The position numbers and the translations under genes were made by a program. The notes below the pieces were generated by a model. The model ran no database searches and was not told the DNA's origin. It saw only the letters and a program-made list of their open reading frames with translations. Shown one piece after another: positions 3,974 through 19,204 of a stretch of 21,600 nt of DNA (positions are counted from its first letter, which is position 1; each line of letters begins with the position of its first letter). This DNA is from a virus, in IMG/VR virus record IMGVR_UViG_3300030099_005488, positions 1 through 21,600 of that record, one strand, 5' to 3'.

Positions 3974-5005
3974 TTACCCTACCATAAACGATTCATAAGA
4001 GCCAATACCTTTTGGACCCTTAAACATATCACGTGCCTGATCCGATAAACCGGCAATACCGCCATCTGCTTTCTTCTCAATGTTTTTTGGTAATTGTTTA
4101 AGAAAAGGTAATTGATCGTCCCTTCTTTGCTCAATTCGATTCATCATGCGTTCTAACCCTAAATCTCTTACTTCTTTTCGTAAACCGCGATCAGATATAG
4201 CTCTTGCGAGGTCCTCTTGCGTTTTACCTTTTCTAATAGGATCCCCAGAACGAACAAAGTCGTCTGGGCCTGATCCTTTCCGAAACATATGTGAAATGTC
4301 TAAATCTATTTCACCTAGTGCTATTAGCTCTTCATCACTCAGTTTCATAAAATCTTTGTATGTTTTACCTTTTAAAAAAGTTTCAAGATCTTTATTAAGT
4401 GATACAGTCAGATCGTTCATCAGCTCCGTGGTTTTTTGACCCTCCGATAAAATATCTATACCTTTTTTAAAATCTTTTCCTGTCCTCATTTTATATGTGT
4501 CGGCTAAAGAACCAAAAGCAAAATCTCGTAACTTATCGGCCTTAGCGACTGCTGCGGCTAACGGACCTTTCAACGCGGTCTTAGCAACCTTGGCCGCAGG
4601 TGCAGGAGGCACTAGATCAACAATACCTTTACCAACCGGCGCCGCTAAAGCAGCTGCCCCCATGCCCGTAAGCACCTCACGACGCGACAAACCTTGCTTG
4701 GCCGCAGGTGTCTTTTTAGCAACATCATCCGCTGCGCCTAACAAAAACAATTCTTTTAAAGCATCTACGCCTGCTGTAAGTGAAGGCTTAATTAAATTTC
4801 TCCCAAAGTAAGCAACTGGAGCAGCCGCCAATATACCTGTCTCCAAAGCTGACTCGCCATATTTACCCTCCTTTAAAGCCTGACCGGCACGCTGAAACCC
4901 AGTCACAGGATTCATATCTACTGCCGTTTTTGCAAAGGGCCGTAGTTCAGGAGGTATGTACCGTGTTACATCTTTGCCAAAAATACCAAACCGTTGTTCC
5001 GTCAT
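3974..5005 (-). CDS. Probable virion-associated protein with an internal twin-arginine-like segment
   Basis: A 343-residue protein between terminase and portal, not recognised as a named family. The N terminus resembles tail- or head-associated proteins of marine phages (IFGKDVTRYIPPELRPFAKT). Residues 1-90 contain Ala/Gly-rich hydrophobic stretches. Residues 107-125 (LSRREVLTGMGAAALAAPV) look like a twin-arginine export signal: SRRExL followed by a hydrophobic Ala/Gly run and Ala-Pro. They are internal rather than N-terminal. The C-terminal part is charged and helical, ending KKADGGIAGLSDQARDMF, a GGIAGL-type tail seen in structural genes of this phage type. The ATG overlaps the terminase stop (TGATG), indicating coupling. 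A scaffold or ejected internal protein is possible but unproven. Confidence 0.8.
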   Translation of the reverse strand: MTEQRFGIFGKDVTRYIPPELRPFAKTAVDMNPVTGFQRAGQALKEGKYGESALETGILAAAPVAYFGRNLIKPSLTAGVDALKELFLLGAADDVAKKTPAAKQGLSRREVLTGMGAAALAAPVGKGIVDLVPPAPAAKVAKTALKGPLAAAVAKADKLRDFAFGSLADTYKMRTGKDFKKGIDILSEGQKTTELMNDLTVSLNKDLETFLKGKTYKDFMKLSDEELIALGEIDLDISHMFRKGSGPDDFVRSGDPIRKGKTQEDLARAISDRGLRKEVRDLGLERMMNRIEQRRDDQLPFLKQLPKNIEKKADGGIAGLSDQARDMFKGPKGIGSYESFMVG

Positions 5006-6450
5006 CAGTAGTACGCTCTTACTTGCACGTTGTTGTCATCCTCATCCCAATCATCACTTGGTAGCTGCACAAAGTTGCCCTGACGATACCGCATTAAAGC
5101 CTGTGTCATACTATCCACAAGGTCATCATACTCCCCATTTGGAAAAGCTGCAACCTCCTCTATCATCTCATCCGCAAACTTAGTGTCTGGTGCGTACACC
5201 ATGCCCGCTTCAAAAAGCACCGATACAGAGTGCACGCGCGTCACCTTATCATTACCTTTACTCGGTGTAAAGTTGACAACAGGTATACCCATGTTTCGTA
5301 GTTCGTGGGTCAAGGGCAGCCCTGTCGCTTTCGCTTCTATAATCACCGTGTCCGGCTCCCAGTACTTATATTGATCCAACGCCACCTGCTTTAACTCAGG
5401 AAAATCCCACCGCTCTTTCTGACTATCAAGAAGTATCAGGGCCGGGGGCCCACCCGCTTCTTCCGGATAAAACACGCCCCATGTCGTTATCGCACTATAG
5501 TCCGATGTCTCGCGTTTCGTGAACGCTGTATCGTAGCTCTGTATTACAAACTCAAGATTAGGCACGTTCTCTTTGTCCCAACGCTTCCACCACTCGCGAG
5601 GAATAATAGCGTTTTCCTCACCCGTCGGATTCTGTTGATACTGCGCGTTCCATTTACTAGGCGGAATAGATGCACGCACCGCTGTCAAATCATCGAGGCT
5701 CCAGAACTCTGGCCAACAAGGACTGCCATCGTCAAATATCGCCGGTAACTCTACAACTTCCCACTGGTCCGCTAATTCATCTTTTGCCATCGCACGCAGC
5801 AACTGTCCCGTCATATCCTTCTCGGACCACCTCGTCTGAACCAACACAATACTGCCGCCCGGCTGTAGTCTCTGTCGGGGGCCCCCAGTGTACCAGTCCC
5901 ACGCATCGTCAAAACCCGTGTTCGACATTGCTGTCTGTTCCGAGTGCGGATCATCTATAATCACCAAATCTCCACCACGACCCGCTAAGTTCGAACCAAC
6001 CCCAACCGCATAATACATACCGCCCGATGTCGTGTCCCACCGCCCGGATGCTTTACTGTCAGCAGACAAATTAACAGACGGAAAGATATCCTTATAGTCA
6101 TCACTATCAATGAGGTTCTTGGTCTTACGACCAAAGTTCACCGCCAACTCCGTGGTGTGTGTCGCCTGAATAATCTTCATCTTAGGGTTCTTACCCATCA
6201 TCCACGCCGGAAACAAAAAACTTGCAAACTCCGACTTGGTGTGCCGTGGGGCCATATTAATAATCAAACGTTTCAGCTCACCGCGTGCCACACGTTCTAA
6301 CTTCTCGGCAATAATCTTATGATGCCTACCCGCAATGAAGTCCGGCCACATATTTTTTACAAAAACTAAAAAGTCCTCTTGACACTTCTCGTGCTTTTCT
6401 ATCTGCGCTAATCTTAATTTAAGCTTGGCTTCCTGTTCTGAAACATCCAT
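5005..6450 (-). CDS. terL: Terminase large subunit
   Basis: A 481-residue packaging motor that translocates and cuts concatemeric phage DNA at the portal. The ATPase domain shows a deviant Walker A, APRHTKS at residues 68-73, adenine-motif surroundings (IIQATHTTELA), Walker B LVIIDDPHS at 162-170, and the coupling motif LVQTRWSE at 203-210. The C-terminal RNase H-like nuclease shows acidic residues Asp307 (QSYDTAF), Asp317 (SDYSAI), Glu372 (IIEAKA) and Asp443 (YDDLVDSM). The length is normal and both active sites are intact. The gene starts at a TGATG junction with the upstream nuclease, next to an unusual GGGGCCCC palindrome. Identification is firm. Confidence 0.97.
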   Translation of the reverse strand: MDVSEQEAKLKLRLAQIEKHEKCQEDFLVFVKNMWPDFIAGRHHKIIAEKLERVARGELKRLIINMAPRHTKSEFASFLFPAWMMGKNPKMKIIQATHTTELAVNFGRKTKNLIDSDDYKDIFPSVNLSADSKASGRWDTTSGGMYYAVGVGSNLAGRGGDLVIIDDPHSEQTAMSNTGFDDAWDWYTGGPRQRLQPGGSIVLVQTRWSEKDMTGQLLRAMAKDELADQWEVVELPAIFDDGSPCWPEFWSLDDLTAVRASIPPSKWNAQYQQNPTGEENAIIPREWWKRWDKENVPNLEFVIQSYDTAFTKRETSDYSAITTWGVFYPEEAGGPPALILLDSQKERWDFPELKQVALDQYKYWEPDTVIIEAKATGLPLTHELRNMGIPVVNFTPSKGNDKVTRVHSVSVLFEAGMVYAPDTKFADEMIEEVAAFPNGEYDDLVDSMTQALMRYRQGNFVQLPSDDWDEDDNNVQVRAYY

Positions 6451-6905
6451 CAGGGGGCCCCTACAATCTTAAAAAACATATCGTCCCAACGAAACGGCTG
6501 CATACAATGAAACTCCGGCTTCTTATCTTTCAACCCATCTAACTTTAAGTCTACCGCATCTTCGGCCTTAAACAAAAACATCTCTGCTCTGTCCGCCGGT
6601 GTCGGCTGCTTCTTAATCAAAATCCAACACGACGCGTGTTTGTGTTTCGTGAGCCACGATACCTGGGACGGGCGCAGATCTACTTTGTTCGTTTTCGTAA
6701 ATTTAAGCTCCACAAAATGAAAACAACCATGGGTATCACAGAGGAGGACGTCTGGGATTCCGGCTCCGACCCAGTTCTCAATTCGCGTTAGCGACAGCTT
6801 TCGACTTACTCTTTGCGCCGCTTCCTTTACCTGTTTGTAAAAGCCGCTCTCCTTCTTCACGGCTATCGTTATCTTCTGGGGTGATGTCGATTGTGACTGG
6901 GGCAT
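6450..6905 (-). CDS. PD-(D/E)XK (VRR-NUC-like) nuclease
   Basis: A 151-residue protein with the nuclease signature GIPDVLLCDTHGCFHFVELKFT: Asp52, Glu66 and Lys68 match the PD...ExK core. The helix LRPSQVSWL (77-85) matches the downstream Gln/Trp element of VRR-NUC and Holliday-junction-resolvase-like enzymes. Glu43 (RIENWVG) is a candidate further active-site residue. It would cut DNA, perhaps branched DNA before or during packaging, and it lies between the two terminase genes. The ATG has a strong AAAGGAG site five bases upstream. This start means the first 128 bases overlap the end of the terminase small-subunit gene in another frame. A GTG at 6860 is a weaker alternative start. Target and partner are unknown. 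Confidence 0.85.
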   Translation of the reverse strand: MPQSQSTSPQKITIAVKKESGFYKQVKEAAQRVSRKLSLTRIENWVGAGIPDVLLCDTHGCFHFVELKFTKTNKVDLRPSQVSWLTKHKHASCWILIKKQPTPADRAEMFLFKAEDAVDLKLDGLKDKKPEFHCMQPFRWDDMFFKIVGAP

Positions 6906-7395
6906 AACTCTCCTTTATCTCTTTCAATGCTTTCATAACTTCTTCCTTAGACATACTGTCTATGCTCCCGGTTCGTATCTCTGATTTATTCACGTATATA
7001 TCACCCTGCGCCATGCCACGACGGAACTCTGCCTGCACCGCTGCGGAGTAGGCCCCATTTGCCAGAGCCTCGTCCCGTATCTTTTGTAAATCTCTAATGT
7101 GACGATGAAAGGTAATACCATACTTCTCATCCAAAGCACGCCGATATTCTTTGATCGCATGAACAACATGAGGCGATACATTTGGGTTCGTTAACTCATA
7201 CGCACGTGTGTGTGCACTCGATACACCGTACCCTGCATTCTCTGCTGCCTCTCTCATGGTTATCTGGCCATCCTTGCTGACCAGTTCGCGGACAAACAGT
7301 TCCTGTTTTCGTGTCAATGGTGTGTGAATAGTTGCGGGTTTTCGTCCGCGTGTCTCGTAGCGTATACCCGCTTTTCCTAGTTTTTTCTTCGTCAT
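6778..7395 (-). CDS. terS: Terminase small subunit
   Basis: A 205-residue protein that probably recognises phage DNA and loads the large terminase. Residues about 25-85 form the typical small-terminase helix-turn-helix region: LTRKQELFVRELVSKDGQ, then MREAAENAGYGVSSAHTRAYEL, then NPNVSPHVVHAIKEYR. The C terminus is charged and Lys-rich (GSGAKSKSKAVANAN). The frame is open back to 7479, but the ATG at 7395 is preferred because GAGGG lies eight bases before it, while ATGs at 7431 and 7479 have none. Its position next to the nuclease and large subunit supports the call. The last 128 bases overlap the nuclease gene. A parS sequence and a repeat-rich non-coding segment lie just upstream, where cos or pac sites often occur. 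Confidence 0.88.
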   Translation of the reverse strand: MTKKKLGKAGIRYETRGRKPATIHTPLTRKQELFVRELVSKDGQITMREAAENAGYGVSSAHTRAYELTNPNVSPHVVHAIKEYRRALDEKYGITFHRHIRDLQKIRDEALANGAYSAAVQAEFRRGMAQGDIYVNKSEIRTGSIDSMSKEEVMKALKEIKESYAPVTIDITPEDNDSREEGERLLQTGKGSGAKSKSKAVANAN

Positions 7396-7429
7396 TCTCG
7401 GCCCTCGGATAAGTGAACAGTAAACAGGC

Positions 7430-7457
7430 ATAATATGCACGGTTTTTAGGCAGTTAA
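7430..7457 (-). promoter_or_regulatory. Possible sigma-70-type promoter for the packaging operon
   Basis: On the minus strand TATTAT (7430-7435) is preceded by TTAACT (7452-7457) with a 16-base spacer, 35 bases before the terminase small-subunit start. The -10 is good and the -35 weak. The perfect parS sequence lies about 35 bases upstream of the -35 element, so ParB spreading there could affect this promoter. Assignment is tentative. Confidence 0.35.
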
Positions 7458-7490
7458 CAAGAATCTTTTTTTTGCACAAATAATAGGCAT

Positions 7491-7506
7491 TGTTTCACGT
7501 GAAACA
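7491..7506. promoter_or_regulatory. parS: Perfect parS-like centromere site (ParB-binding palindrome)
   Basis: The sequence TGTTTCACGTGAAACA is a perfect 16-bp palindrome and is identical, base for base, to the canonical bacterial chromosomal parS site recognised by ParB/Spo0J proteins. ParB binds parS, closes into a CTP-dependent clamp and spreads along flanking DNA, and ParA then moves the complex. The chance of one exact 16-mer in 21.6 kb is about 5 in a million for random DNA. No second copy and no parA or parB gene were seen. The site lies 96 bases upstream of the terminase small-subunit start. Use of host ParB is inference. Confidence 0.85.
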
Positions 7507-7971
7507 TTGGTACGATTTTTTATGTGATTATTCGTGAAAAACATGGCCCATGCAAGCGCAGCACAGCACCACGGCGTCCGCTCCTGGACCGATCAAATCG
7601 GCGATTTTTTGCCGTAAACTGACCCGATAACCGAGGGACCCTGGGCGTATATACTAGACTCCAGGACCTGGAAACGCGTTCCCTGGTGCATGATCTAAAG
7701 CGCTGCGGTTTTCCCTGGACCGGGCGCGATGGACCTGGGGCAGCTGCGGCGCGTAAACTGATCCTAAACTACTGCTCCAGGTTTCGTTTCCTGCGCGTAA
7801 TTATTAAAAGTTTAGCTGCGGTTTTTGCCTGGACCGGGTGAAAGTTTAGCTGCGGTTTTCCCTGGTCCTGGTGCCATGTTTCGGGGTTTTCTATCCAGGA
7901 TCCGCGCGACCTGGTACGTTTGGAGCTGCTCGAGGGCCTCGGCCCTGGGCGTGTTTAACTGTTAAAAAGTC
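7507..7971. other. GC-rich non-coding segment with direct and inverted repeats
   Basis: No gene on either strand is convincing here. The stretch from about 7545 is much richer in G+C than its flanks. It contains three imperfect copies of a GCTGCGGTTTT(N)CCTGG unit (around 7702, 7815 and 7849, the last two 34 bases apart), two GTAAACTGA copies (7614 and 7752), and 14 CCWGG sites. Hairpins include CCGAT/ATCGG (7589-7601), TCCAGG/CCTGGA (7660-7672) and AGGGCC/GGCCCT (7933-7946). Its position upstream of the terminase small subunit suggests a packaging site (cos or pac), an origin or a structured RNA. None is proven. Confidence 0.6.
7808..7870. repeat. Tandem 34-base direct repeat
   Basis: Two adjacent copies, beginning at 7807 and 7841, share AAAGTTTAGCTGCGGTTTT followed by a CCTGG core (CCTGGACCGGG in the first, CCTGGTCCTGG in the second). 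A third partial copy lies at 7702-7726. The period is 34 bases. Such short tandem units in non-coding phage DNA are typical of protein-binding arrays or packaging sites, but the binder is unknown. Confidence 0.75.
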
Positions 7972-7998
7972 AAAAAAAAGGCCCGAATAAACGGGCCT
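7972..7998 (-). terminator. Rho-independent terminator after the 65-residue gene
   Basis: On the minus strand a perfect 7-bp stem, AGGCCCG/CGGGCCT with a six-base loop, is followed by eight T residues. It ends the two-gene unit 9035-8023. The same hairpin with the same loop and T-run occurs again at 9111-9137. Confidence 0.9.
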
Positions 7999-8022
7999 GA
8001 TTTATTAGAAGTTTAACCTGGT

Positions 8023-8220
8023 TTATGTGTGCGTATAACCATCGTTTTCTATTACCAGGTATTGATTCCGCGCCTTGATAACTATAGCAGCCTCTTCTCC
8101 TAGTATTGAGTTTCTAGAGTCAATAAACTCTCCGAGCGTACCAGGAAAAGATCCTTTACTAGATTCCTCCTGGTATAACTCTAAAAGTTTTTCTAGTTGT
8201 TTTATGCTCGGGTTTTTCAT
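8023..8220 (-). CDS. Small hypothetical protein (65 residues)
   Basis: A 65-residue, probably mostly helical soluble protein with no recognised family. The N-terminal third is helical and charged (IKQLEKLLELYQEESSKG), and the C-terminal part looks beta-like (AAIVIKARNQYLVIENDG). The ATG overlaps the stop of the upstream 272-residue gene in an ATGA junction, so the two are likely translated together. A strong terminator follows. It is CCWGG-rich, with the motif falling in different codon phases. Confidence 0.72.
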   Translation of the reverse strand: MKNPSIKQLEKLLELYQEESSKGSFPGTLGEFIDSRNSILGEEAAIVIKARNQYLVIENDGYTHT

Positions 8221-9035
8221 CGCGCAGGAGGCCTTCCAATATTTAAATTAACTAGGGTATATTCTCCGCTCTTAATTTTGGCCTCGGTTTCTTTCCTGGT
8301 TTCATTTAAAAAGAGTGCTCTATATTTAGAGGTAGTTTTTGAAAAATCCCAGTGTATGCGGTCCAAGTAAGTCTTCCCATCTGGCGCCTGGTAAACTATG
8401 CGGTGTTTATAACTCTGAAAAGTTCGGCTGCCGTCTTTGGTCCTAATCTCGTATTGATTAAGACCTGCATTAACCTTAGCAACCCAGGGAAGGTTTAAGG
8501 CCTCTTCAGGTGTTGCAGCAGCTGCGGCAGGTACTTGCACACTCAAAGATATATTACCGGGTTTATTGCTGCTTAAAGTGGCCTCTTCAACCTGGCCTTT
8601 TGCAGCTGATTGCGATGAGTCCAAAAACTCTTCCAGGTTTTCTTCCAGGTTCTTCTTGTACCTGGTCGGCAGTCCCCATTTTCTTTTGTTTAATTCCTGG
8701 TCTACCTTCGATTGATCGCCCCGAGGGTTAAGAATTAGAGTTGTTTTGCCGTCTACGCCTACAACCTGCACAAAAGGATCTTTAATAAGCTTTAAATAAC
8801 CCTTGTCTTCGTTTCCTGGTTTATCCCAGTAATGATGCAAAGTTTTTTCCCAGGTATAGAGTCCATGCAAGTTTCTGCCATTATAAATAACAACTGTCTT
8901 TATATGGTCCGCTGTGTATCTCCTGGAAGATTTGCAGCGCGATATAATATGATCCGTAATGGCTGAGATCGAGGGCAGGACGGGCAGCAAGTGATGCCCG
9001 GTTGAGTTCGTCAATTCTAAATGTCCATGATACAT
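8217..9035 (-). CDS. Hypothetical protein with DUF8033-like C-terminal region
   Basis: A 272-residue protein. Residues about 1-120 are a mixed domain (YTADHIKTVVIYNGRNLHGL, then FVQVVGVDGKTTLILNPRGD). Residues about 135-180 are a low-complexity linker with an Ala run (VPAAAAATPEE). The C-terminal part (about 190-262) has the pattern FQSYKHRIVYQAPDGKTYL, then IHWDFSKTTSKYRALFL. It resembles the small DUF8033-type domain I recall from marine phage proteins; that match is from memory and needs a profile search. The leader carries the shared AACTAACTAACGGAG motif, preceded by a good sigma-70-type promoter. Function unknown. Confidence 0.8.
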   Translation of the reverse strand: MYHGHLELTNSTGHHLLPVLPSISAITDHIISRCKSSRRYTADHIKTVVIYNGRNLHGLYTWEKTLHHYWDKPGNEDKGYLKLIKDPFVQVVGVDGKTTLILNPRGDQSKVDQELNKRKWGLPTRYKKNLEENLEEFLDSSQSAAKGQVEEATLSSNKPGNISLSVQVPAAAAATPEEALNLPWVAKVNAGLNQYEIRTKDGSRTFQSYKHRIVYQAPDGKTYLDRIHWDFSKTTSKYRALFLNETRKETEAKIKSGEYTLVNLNIGRPPAR

Positions 9036-17310: not shown

Positions 17311-18839
17311 ATGCTGTAACTCCTCAATGCGTCTTCTGGCTCGATTAAATATAAGTTTTTTTTAGTTCGTGTTACACCGACATAGAATACCCGGTGTAGC
17401 TCGTCAGGATCCTGCTCAGCGGCCTTTGATGCCGCAGGTGATACATCGGTAAAGAGAACGACGTTGTCGGCCTCTCCGCCCTTAGATCCGTGGATAGTGG
17501 ACAAATGTATACGGGGCGTGCCGTTAAACTTCTCTCCACGCCTGAGCAAAGCGGTAATATAGGCCCGTTCTCCATCAGGTATTCTGTCCATGGCCTCATG
17601 CCATATCATATCTTTTGTAGCAAGTAGACCATGATTTACTTGTAGTTGTTCTAGTGTAATCTCGTCATCGTCCATAAGATGCGGTAGTTTTTTAAAGCCA
17701 CGCTTTACACGATTGCCGACAGACATATAGCTATATACTGTTCTTGCCGACTGTGCCGTTACCGCTTTGCCTTTACGCATTTGTTCCCATCCATTAACGG
17801 CCTCACTTATTTTTTGTGATATGGACCGTTTACCGTGATACGCAAACAGTAGGCCGCTGCTGCGTAGACTATCTATAACATTGTGCAGAAAGTAATTAGC
17901 CTGGGCCAGTATGAGCCAAGTGCCGTCAGATAAGTCTATATCACTAACATCATTGAGGCGCTGTACCTCACCGTCCTCTTCTTTAGGTAAGTAACTCTTT
18001 GGCACTCGTCTGTGTATACGTTTTGATATACGCGCGGCGATTGCGTGAATGTTCCGTGGTACGCGATACGATTGCTCTAGTACCTCATAACCCCCGTCGA
18101 GTCCTATAAGATGCTCTACTTCGGCACCTGCCCACTTGTATATGGCCTGGTCATCATCGCCTGCACAGTATATCTTATCGGAGTATTTTTCTATTATATG
18201 CGCAACATCCCATTGCAGAGGCGAGAGATCCTGTGCTTCATCTATAAAACTCACACTTAAATTCGGACAGAACTTAGAGCTTTCATTTACAAATATCTCA
18301 AGCATATCCGTAAAGTCATACAGCTGTAATCGTTTCTTGTAGTTAATTAAGGATTCGGCCACGTAGGATAGTGTTACCCAGTCTATGTCGGTGTTTGATT
18401 TGTTGTACTGAGAGCGTAGAGGCACTTTACGCAGTCTAGCCAGGTTTATAATACTTAATATGGGATCAGAGTTTGCGTTAGACTCCAGTATATTATCCTC
18501 TGCGTTGAACCTGTCCACAGTAATACTGACGCCTATGGCGCGTGACAACTCTCTGTAATGTTCAGCCTGCATAATTTGTTCGGGGCGTATGCCTGACAAG
18601 CGCAGAGCAAAGCTATGTAAGGTACGAAACCATGGCAATTGCTTGGGCTCCAAACTAAATCGTTGACACGCACGCTCTATCGCTTCATATGCTGCCTGAC
18701 GCGTAAACGCAAAGTATCCTATCTTTGATGGATGAATACCTTGGTTTAGTGCGTCATCAACCTTGTTCAGTAGAGCTGTGGTCTTCCCCGTCCCTGGTGG
18801 GCCGTATATCCTGAATATCTTTGTTTTCATTCTGCTCAT
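17307..18839 (-). CDS. UvrD/PcrA-type superfamily 1 DNA helicase
   Basis: A 510-residue helicase expected to unwind DNA 3'-5' at the phage fork or in recombination. Motifs in order: Walker A GPPGTGKTT (13-21), Ia AFTRQAAYEA (44-53), FRTLHSFA (71-78), Walker B FIDEAQD (198-204), III GDDDQAIYKWAGA (227-239), IV LEQSYRVPRNI (254-264), V LSTIHGSKGGEADNV (446-460) and VI VFYVGVTRTKKNLY (484-497). At about 510 residues it is shorter than bacterial UvrD (~720), with a reduced 1B/2B region. The start is uncertain: Met1 at 18839 and Met4 at 18830 are both close to the Walker A and neither has a strong ribosome binding site. Its 5' end overlaps the preceding small HTH gene. Confidence 0.93.
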   Translation of the reverse strand: MSRMKTKIFRIYGPPGTGKTTALLNKVDDALNQGIHPSKIGYFAFTRQAAYEAIERACQRFSLEPKQLPWFRTLHSFALRLSGIRPEQIMQAEHYRELSRAIGVSITVDRFNAEDNILESNANSDPILSIINLARLRKVPLRSQYNKSNTDIDWVTLSYVAESLINYKKRLQLYDFTDMLEIFVNESSKFCPNLSVSFIDEAQDLSPLQWDVAHIIEKYSDKIYCAGDDDQAIYKWAGAEVEHLIGLDGGYEVLEQSYRVPRNIHAIAARISKRIHRRVPKSYLPKEEDGEVQRLNDVSDIDLSDGTWLILAQANYFLHNVIDSLRSSGLLFAYHGKRSISQKISEAVNGWEQMRKGKAVTAQSARTVYSYMSVGNRVKRGFKKLPHLMDDDEITLEQLQVNHGLLATKDMIWHEAMDRIPDGERAYITALLRRGEKFNGTPRIHLSTIHGSKGGEADNVVLFTDVSPAASKAAEQDPDELHRVFYVGVTRTKKNLYLIEPEDALRSYSI

Positions 18840-18972
18840 CTATTTTTTTTACTATAACACGTATGCGCTCACGAGTGAGTCCATACATCTTTCCAATAGC
18901 TGTCAGCGTCATTAATTTATCTGTTCTAAGAGAATATATTTCGTTATTACGCTGATTATATTTCAAGTGCAT
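18757..18972 (-). CDS. Small sigma-70-region-4-like helix-turn-helix protein
   Basis: A 71-residue protein. Residues 21-44 (MTLTAIGKMYGLTRERIRVI) follow the sigma-70 region 4 helix-turn-helix closely (TLxxIGxxxGxTRERIRxI), the part that reads -35 promoter elements. There is no region 2, so it is not a full sigma factor. The tail is acidic and disordered (DIQDIRPTRDGEDHSSTEQG). The start at 18972 is chosen over 18996 because GGAGG lies nine bases upstream, inside the previous gene. It overlaps that gene by 17 bases and the helicase by about 80. A role as a small DNA-binding regulator or RNA-polymerase modifier is inference. Confidence 0.75.
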   Translation of the reverse strand: MHLKYNQRNNEIYSLRTDKLMTLTAIGKMYGLTRERIRVIVKKIDEQNENKDIQDIRPTRDGEDHSSTEQG

Positions 18973-19204
18973 CTTCAAGATCCTCCATACTGCCATATCT
19001 CTTTATAAATATGGGCGTAGTTTCTCCGACCCAAGCACCGGCAGTATTAAAATCAAAATACTCCACGGCTTCTTCGTAAGGCATACCATGACGCCGACAC
19101 AGTATAGCTATACACTCATCTCTGTCATAGGCAATAATATCTTTTTGACCACACCGGCTGCCTATGCCTATTACAGCCTTATCAAATCCATCGGCTTTTA
19201 ACAT
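18956..19204 (-). CDS. Conserved phage protein of unknown function (82 residues)
   Basis: The pattern GFDKAVIGIGSRCGQKDIIA, YDRDECIAILCRRHGMPYEE, AVEYFDFNTAGAWVGE followed by TPIF is one I recognise from many phages (DGFDxAiiGigxrcGqxdilxYdxdkci...EeaxEyfxfNvxGaWVGexTPif). It has no known function. GAAGGAGG lies before the ATG, which overlaps the primase stop (TAATG). The location between primase and helicase suggests a link to replication. Confidence 0.85.
   Translation of the reverse strand: MLKADGFDKAVIGIGSRCGQKDIIAYDRDECIAILCRRHGMPYEEAVEYFDFNTAGAWVGETTPIFIKRYGSMEDLEDALEI

Follow-up and report, generated by a model that had tools for sequence, protein, structure and literature searches.

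A conserved parS palindrome near the terminase genes of a phage clade: a probable centromere for the host ParB protein

Introduction

Phages P1 and N15 carry ParABS cassettes. In mycobacteriophages of the RedRock type, the cassette comprises parA and parB beside the phage's own parS, and the prophages are plasmids (PMC7157519). The genome of the virulent phage phi29, in the account relayed by PMC9437464, is trapped in Bacillus spores by the host Spo0J/ParB protein (Meijer et al., 2005), and CtrA sites on phages of Alphaproteobacteria have led to a hypothesis of lytic deferment (PMC9437464). On the host side, parS is the nucleation site of chromosomal ParB, which then closes into a clamp with CTP and slides (PMC12704722), and SMC is recruited at parS sites (PMC10197239). 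Caulobacter ParB tested in E. coli spreads approximately 2 kb from one site, and plasmid-borne parS can kill Caulobacter, the plasmid being segregated in place of the chromosome (PMC5815017). In Hyphomonas neptunium, two copies of TGTTTCACGTGAAACA serve as chromosomal parS (PMC7022226).

The phi29/Spo0J precedent is thus known, and its breadth beyond sporulating hosts appears to be unreported in the literature searched, which led only to phi29 and to ParABS prophages and yielded no description of a lone parS in a phage whose host does not sporulate (the search took in neither preprints nor most articles behind subscription). Here we describe a lone parS in the virus record IMGVR_UViG_3300030099_005488, of which the whole 21,600-nucleotide stretch analyzed is referred to as the window.

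Results

The parS palindrome and its junction

The sequence at positions 7491–7506 of the window, TGTTTCACGTGAAACA, is identical at 16/16 positions to the chromosomal parS palindrome, as a sequence-only reading of this DNA had proposed. It is the single exact copy in the whole 21.6-kb record and the only match in the window even when up to three mismatches are allowed; approximately 0.12 matches of this quality are expected in dinucleotide shuffles of the window, and approximately 7e-6 exact matches are expected from its base composition (our own arithmetic). The exact occurrence of parS in this phage is not due to chance. Chromosomal parS is found near the bacterial chromosome origin, whereas this 16-mer lies on a virus contig beside terS. 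The features of the region are as follows.

5005–6450, minus strand: terL, terminase large subunit (Terminase_6C; 62% identical to TerL of pelagiphage HTVC027P)
6450–6905, minus strand: VRR-NUC-like nuclease gene (PHROG 2165 and 93; weak VRR_NUC match below the cut-off)
6778–7395, minus strand: terS, terminase small subunit (PHROG 51, E 5e-7; Pfam Terminase_2, E 2.6e-5, just below the cut-off)
7396–8022 (627 bp), no strand: non-coding junction that separates the packaging operon from the operon upstream, with no convincing ORF
7430–7457, minus strand: weak promoter-like pair (TTAACT, 16 nt, TATTAT), assigned to the packaging operon, with the conserved TTGTTAACTG block, from a consensus search
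7491–7506, no strand: parS-identical palindrome TGTTTCACGTGAAACA, proposed phage centromere (exact match, sole copy; conserved in relatives)
7539–7549, minus strand: conserved GGGCCATGTTT block, across the parS site from the promoter-like pair, from the flank alignment
7998–7979, minus strand: terminator-like hairpin of the upstream operon, at one end of the junction, with terS at the other

The gene-free character of the junction and the closeness of the site to terS, both noted in the sequence-only reading, are confirmed; the terS start codon (7395) and the site are 95 bases apart. All recognized genes of the window are on the minus strand. The site is followed by terS, the VRR-NUC-like nuclease, terL and an SU10-type portal gene, and is preceded by genes for a family-A DNA polymerase, a UvrD-like helicase, an AEP-type primase and a Pam3 gp34-like protein; given the polymerase, helicase and primase genes, the phage has its own replication proteins. 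The promoter consensus search gave one match (7457–7430, minus strand) against 0.9 expected by chance. The TTGTTAACTG block is conserved in relatives and persists where parS is deleted, and the GGGCCATGTTT block, more conserved than its surroundings, is likewise retained in relatives without parS.

The region also shows compositional peculiarities. Positions 7201–9000 contain 29 of the 62 CCWGG motifs of the window (8, 12 and 9 per 600 bp vs. 0–4 elsewhere) and three GCTGCGGTTTTCCCTGGACC-like repeats of approximately 30 nt, and relatives have different GC-rich repeats at the same terminase junction. Positions 18757–18996 encode a protein of 79 aa in which a helix-turn-helix resembling sigma-70 region 4 was recognized (Pfam Sigma70_r4, E 1.1e-5); it is possibly a phage transcription regulator.

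Conservation among terL relatives

Relatives were retrieved by terL, blind to the parS site, giving 85 unique loci including the window. Sixty-four of these have the exact 16-mer upstream, three have it with one mismatch, nine have the junction but not the site, and nine are too short to tell. The question posed in the sequence-only reading, whether relatives keep the 16-mer at the syntenic junction, is therefore answered by 67 of the 76 informative loci with at most one mismatch (64/76 exact). Among 31 dereplicated loci the information content is 1.97 bits per site column, compared with 0.95 in the upstream and 0.99 in the downstream flank; this set comprises only loci with zero or one mismatch, so that the contrast is somewhat favored by the choice of loci, whereas the proportion of 64/76 exact sites is uncensored. 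Comparison of the sequences supports the palindrome being kept by selection in the clade of the window phage.

Upstream of terL, the site is found at a distance of approximately 1,056 nt in loci with terS and the nuclease gene in between; in loci without this pair, the distance is mostly approximately 84–151 nt. Since this distance tracks the intervening genes, the site marks the start of the operon. Each of 12 records of 31–57 kb contains exactly one exact site and none with one or two mismatches. A second inverted repeat, TTGCCTAATTATTAGGCA-like, occurs just 3' of parS in many relatives (L123–L201), being duplicated in L168, L171, L177, L179, L190 and L200 and lost in L152.

Even with two mismatches allowed, no site occurs in HTVC023P, 023Pt_psg01 or DSL-LC04, the nearest relatives in culture, and an exact site is also missing from the first 50 kb of CRP-901 and from Pkon1, two alphaproteobacterial isolates whose TerL is related. 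A one-mismatch match in HTVC027P, considered as a moved parS, was rejected as a coding coincidence, because it is located inside a 138-codon open frame resembling a VRR-NUC-like nuclease, where it reads FHVKH, and because none of 80 loci of the HTVC027P type contains an exact parS.

Loss and relocation of the site

The spacing between the site and the promoter-like block is not constant, being approximately 24 nt shorter in L152 and approximately 43 nt longer in L168, L171, L177, L179, L190 and L200. The palindrome is absent from one subclade (L146, L154, L155, L157, L158/L220, L163, L164 and L222) and from L173, all of which retain both the GGGCCATGTTT-like and the TTGTTAACTG blocks. L155, at 42.8 kb the longest relative with a site-less junction, has one exact copy elsewhere, 6.7 kb away. 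The relocated copy (L219:3345–3360) is at the edge of a segment of approximately 820 bp that is missing from L220, a relative approximately 92% identical, in which no parS was found in 11.3 kb. Such relocation was demonstrated in one (L155) of the nine relatives without the site at the junction.

A terL homolog is present in 34 of the 120 listed viral stretches bearing the 16-mer. Among the matches listed, close terL homologs have the site immediately upstream of terL, and at 50–75% terL identity it can be downstream (L070 and L110) or kilobases distant (L023 and L103). The site is thus movable and location-independent.

Searches for ParA, ParB and integrase

The sequence-only reading had seen neither parA nor parB in view, and searches of long records agree with it. 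ParA (PF13614) was found in none of 18 long records, the window among them, that are related or contain parS, with 14/14 control genomes matching, and HTH_ParB (PF17762) gave no match above the cut-off in the same 18 records; a match in G010 (14.5 bits) was below the cut-off and was rejected. ParB_N (PF02195) was detected in 0/12 long relatives and in 0/26 long records of two further lineages described below (L055-like and L044-like), records that may be incomplete in both cases. A ParB-like domain occurs in 2 of 50 parS-bearing viral records. The sequence-only reading had suggested a search of the rest of the genome for parA/parB and further parS copies; the long relatives have exactly one copy of the site and no detected ParA or ParB. 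This comparison and that of the junctions both favor the recruitment of host ParB. No integrase was found in the long relatives; the lack of both integrase and ParA makes a standard integrated prophage, or a plasmid prophage that is self-sufficient, less likely. We know of no plasmid-like or lysogenic state in this phage group.

Other phage lineages and collections

For two further lineages, the anchors were picked for carrying the site, and the relatives were recovered by TerL only. In the L055-like lineage, exact or one-mismatch sites are present in 51 of 79 loci, mostly a few hundred bases past terL, and in the L044-like lineage in 40 of 79, upstream of terL, often as two to five exact copies with irregular spacing. 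In the arrays of the latter (L420–L498), the two to five exact sites lie within approximately 1.5 kb of terL, and their positions differ between close relatives. The single control palindrome used, the parS palindrome written backwards, has no match within one mismatch in the loci of both lineages (1.59 Mb).

A scan of IMG/VR for exact parS gave at least 120 stretches vs. 1 for the control, and a scan of INPHARED gave 315 records vs. 0, a count with high redundancy in which some records may be host DNA (e.g., unannotated multi-site Listeria contigs) and some phages may encode their own ParB. The INPHARED carriers include phages of Listeria, Microbacterium, Arthrobacter, Gordonia, Bacillus, Lactobacillus, Enterococcus and Ruegeria, as well as several microviruses. 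The exact site in several of these ssDNA phages of 4–6 kb (M17988.1, HQ264138.1, MG945524.1 and others) is surprising. Where parS falls within coding DNA, its usual reading is VSRET, and the stretches concerned are often linker-like; in B103, a phi29-like phage, it is located in a linker of the gene-15 lysozyme. B103 has no ParB among its annotated genes, and there is little space for a partition cassette in genomes as small as those of B103 (18.6 kb) and Spiroplasma phage 4 (4.4 kb). Isolated phages carrying the site include Ruegeria phage DSS3P8, Bacillus subtilis phage B103 and Arthrobacter phage Joann.

Host

The exact 16-mer is present in 108 of 144 alphaproteobacterial genomes, usually in one to three copies (control palindrome, 0), vs. 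0 of 78 Verrucomicrobiota genomes, the phage contig itself aside. On this basis the host is probably an alphaproteobacterium, and together the parS match and the relatives suggest Alphaproteobacteria, a group without endospore formation. tRNA and Rfam searches gave no hint of the host. Contigs of this phage family occur inside two Verrucomicrobia MAG bins (L206 and L207; NHCX01000045.1 and PBTU01000003.1). As no other sampled Verrucomicrobiota genome contains this parS, these contigs are probably misbinned, and Verrucomicrobia were rejected as the host.

Discussion

We consider it likely that the 16-mer functions as a lone centromere on the phage genome and loads the host ParB, so that phage DNA would become a client or a competitor in the host ParABS/SMC machinery. 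This reading draws on the exact sequence, its strong conservation, the presence of one copy per long genome in the clade, the lack of detected ParB, ParA and integrase, the independence of location, the match to alphaproteobacterial parS and the near absence of the control palindrome, and it agrees with the published clamping of ParB on parS, segregation of parS plasmids in Caulobacter and trapping of phi29 by Spo0J. Against it stand the nine relatives without the site at the junction, of which one is shown to have it elsewhere and L220 has none in 11.3 kb, the lack of a site within two mismatches in HTVC023P, 023Pt_psg01 and DSL-LC04, and the fact that no plasmid-like or lysogenic state is known in the group. 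In an infected cell, host ParB-CTP would nucleate at the phage site, close as a clamp and slide onto the flanking phage DNA. The resulting partition complex might then be handled like a chromosomal origin by the host ParA gradient and the SMC loaders, and the phage genome would thereby be positioned, kept with the nucleoid, moved or compacted. As one site would be added per replicated phage genome, competition with the few chromosomal sites of the host would follow. The benefit that we would place first is that the host ParABS positions and segregates phage genomes; disruption of host segregation would be second, and compaction before packaging is also conceivable.

Disruption could, however, be the very purpose of the site, if it acts as a decoy that titrates ParB and diverts ParA and SMC, so that host segregation and division are blocked while phage DNA accumulates. 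Strong plasmid-borne parS does lower the viability of Caulobacter approximately 1000-fold, the plasmid being segregated in the place of the chromosome (PMC5815017), and the parS arrays of the L044-like lineage would suit such a role; but the clade of the window phage keeps exactly one site, where more copies should benefit a decoy, and a late division block would be of little gain to a lytic phage, which makes this explanation rather unlikely in our view. In most of the clade the first packaging gene begins 95 nt downstream of the site, which could instead suggest local regulation, with ParB spreading from the site to silence or tune the packaging operon or to protect the packaging region, and ParB of Pseudomonas aeruginosa can indeed repress promoters adjacent to parS (PMC5521831, PMC7022226). 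Yet the spacing to the promoter-like block varies (by −24 and +43 nt), the site has been deleted with this block intact, and it is located elsewhere in L155 and in other lineages, so that its position beside terS looks incidental and such regulation is improbable. Accordingly, of the recruitment of host ParB envisaged in the sequence-only reading, the parts that hold up are the identity to parS, the retention under selection and the predicted lack of parA and parB, whereas the specific tie to the packaging region does not.

The fixed place near terS in most of the clade would also be compatible with an operator for a phage-encoded regulator or with a part of a cos/pac site, the identity to parS being coincidental. 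Sites of the cos/pac type are often near terS. An element of this kind would be expected to be indispensable and fixed in position, whereas the palindrome varies in spacing, has been naturally and cleanly deleted in a thriving subclade and is relocated in L155; its movability and clean deletion disfavor a terL/terS operator or cos/pac site, which we rejected. The 16/16 identity to parS, the occurrence of the same 16-mer at other places in unrelated lineages and the lack of an HTH_ParB match above the cut-off make any such explanation very improbable. Chance, carry-over of host DNA or coding coincidence scarcely merits belief as a general account: coincidence does explain the one-mismatch matches of the HTVC027P type, and some collection matches, such as the unannotated multi-site Listeria phage contigs, may well be host DNA, but the site of the clade is non-coding and nearly invariant against divergent flanks, and the control palindrome is almost absent. 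For this clade chance and carry-over are refuted, since a neutral relic would decay like the flanks.

The loading of host ParB by a lone centromere may extend beyond this clade. We lean slightly toward its being a general strategy that virulent phages have evolved repeatedly and use in ordinary infection, beyond spore trapping, in marine, freshwater, actinobacterial and Firmicute phages and possibly in ssDNA microviruses. If so, 16 bp would give phages access to the machinery by which most bacteria move and compact DNA, and the placement of some phage genomes inside the cell would be explained. The site would also be a predictor of host ParB specificity from sequence alone, helping to assign hosts to metagenomic phages; here, this use counts against the Verrucomicrobia bins. 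The isolated phages DSS3P8, B103 and Joann would offer a clean genetic test.

Comparison with known systems

Among known systems, CtrA sites resemble the phage parS in being sites on phage DNA for a DNA-binding protein of the host cell cycle; however, the sites of CtrA, a transcription factor, are clustered at promoters, whereas the phage parS is single and movable. No TTAA-N7-TTAA site was found in the window. The ParABS cassettes of the RedRock type likewise place a centromere site on a phage genome, but the window phage has no detected parA, parB or integrase, and its site is the sequence of the host. The chromosomal parS of Alphaproteobacteria has the identical 16 bp; the phage copy, in contrast, belongs to a virus and has neither parAB nor a host origin anywhere near it. 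With phi29, as far as the account relayed by PMC9437464 goes, the window phage would share the handling of the genome of a virulent phage without its own ParB by a chromosome-segregation protein of the host, and parS on a phage without its own parB is what was found in the window phage and its long relatives. The phi29 relative B103 has the exact parS, as does the window phage. The two cases differ in that phi29, in the same account, infects a sporulating host in which Spo0A represses its promoters, whereas the host of the window phage is probably a non-sporulating alphaproteobacterium, and the two phages belong to unrelated families.
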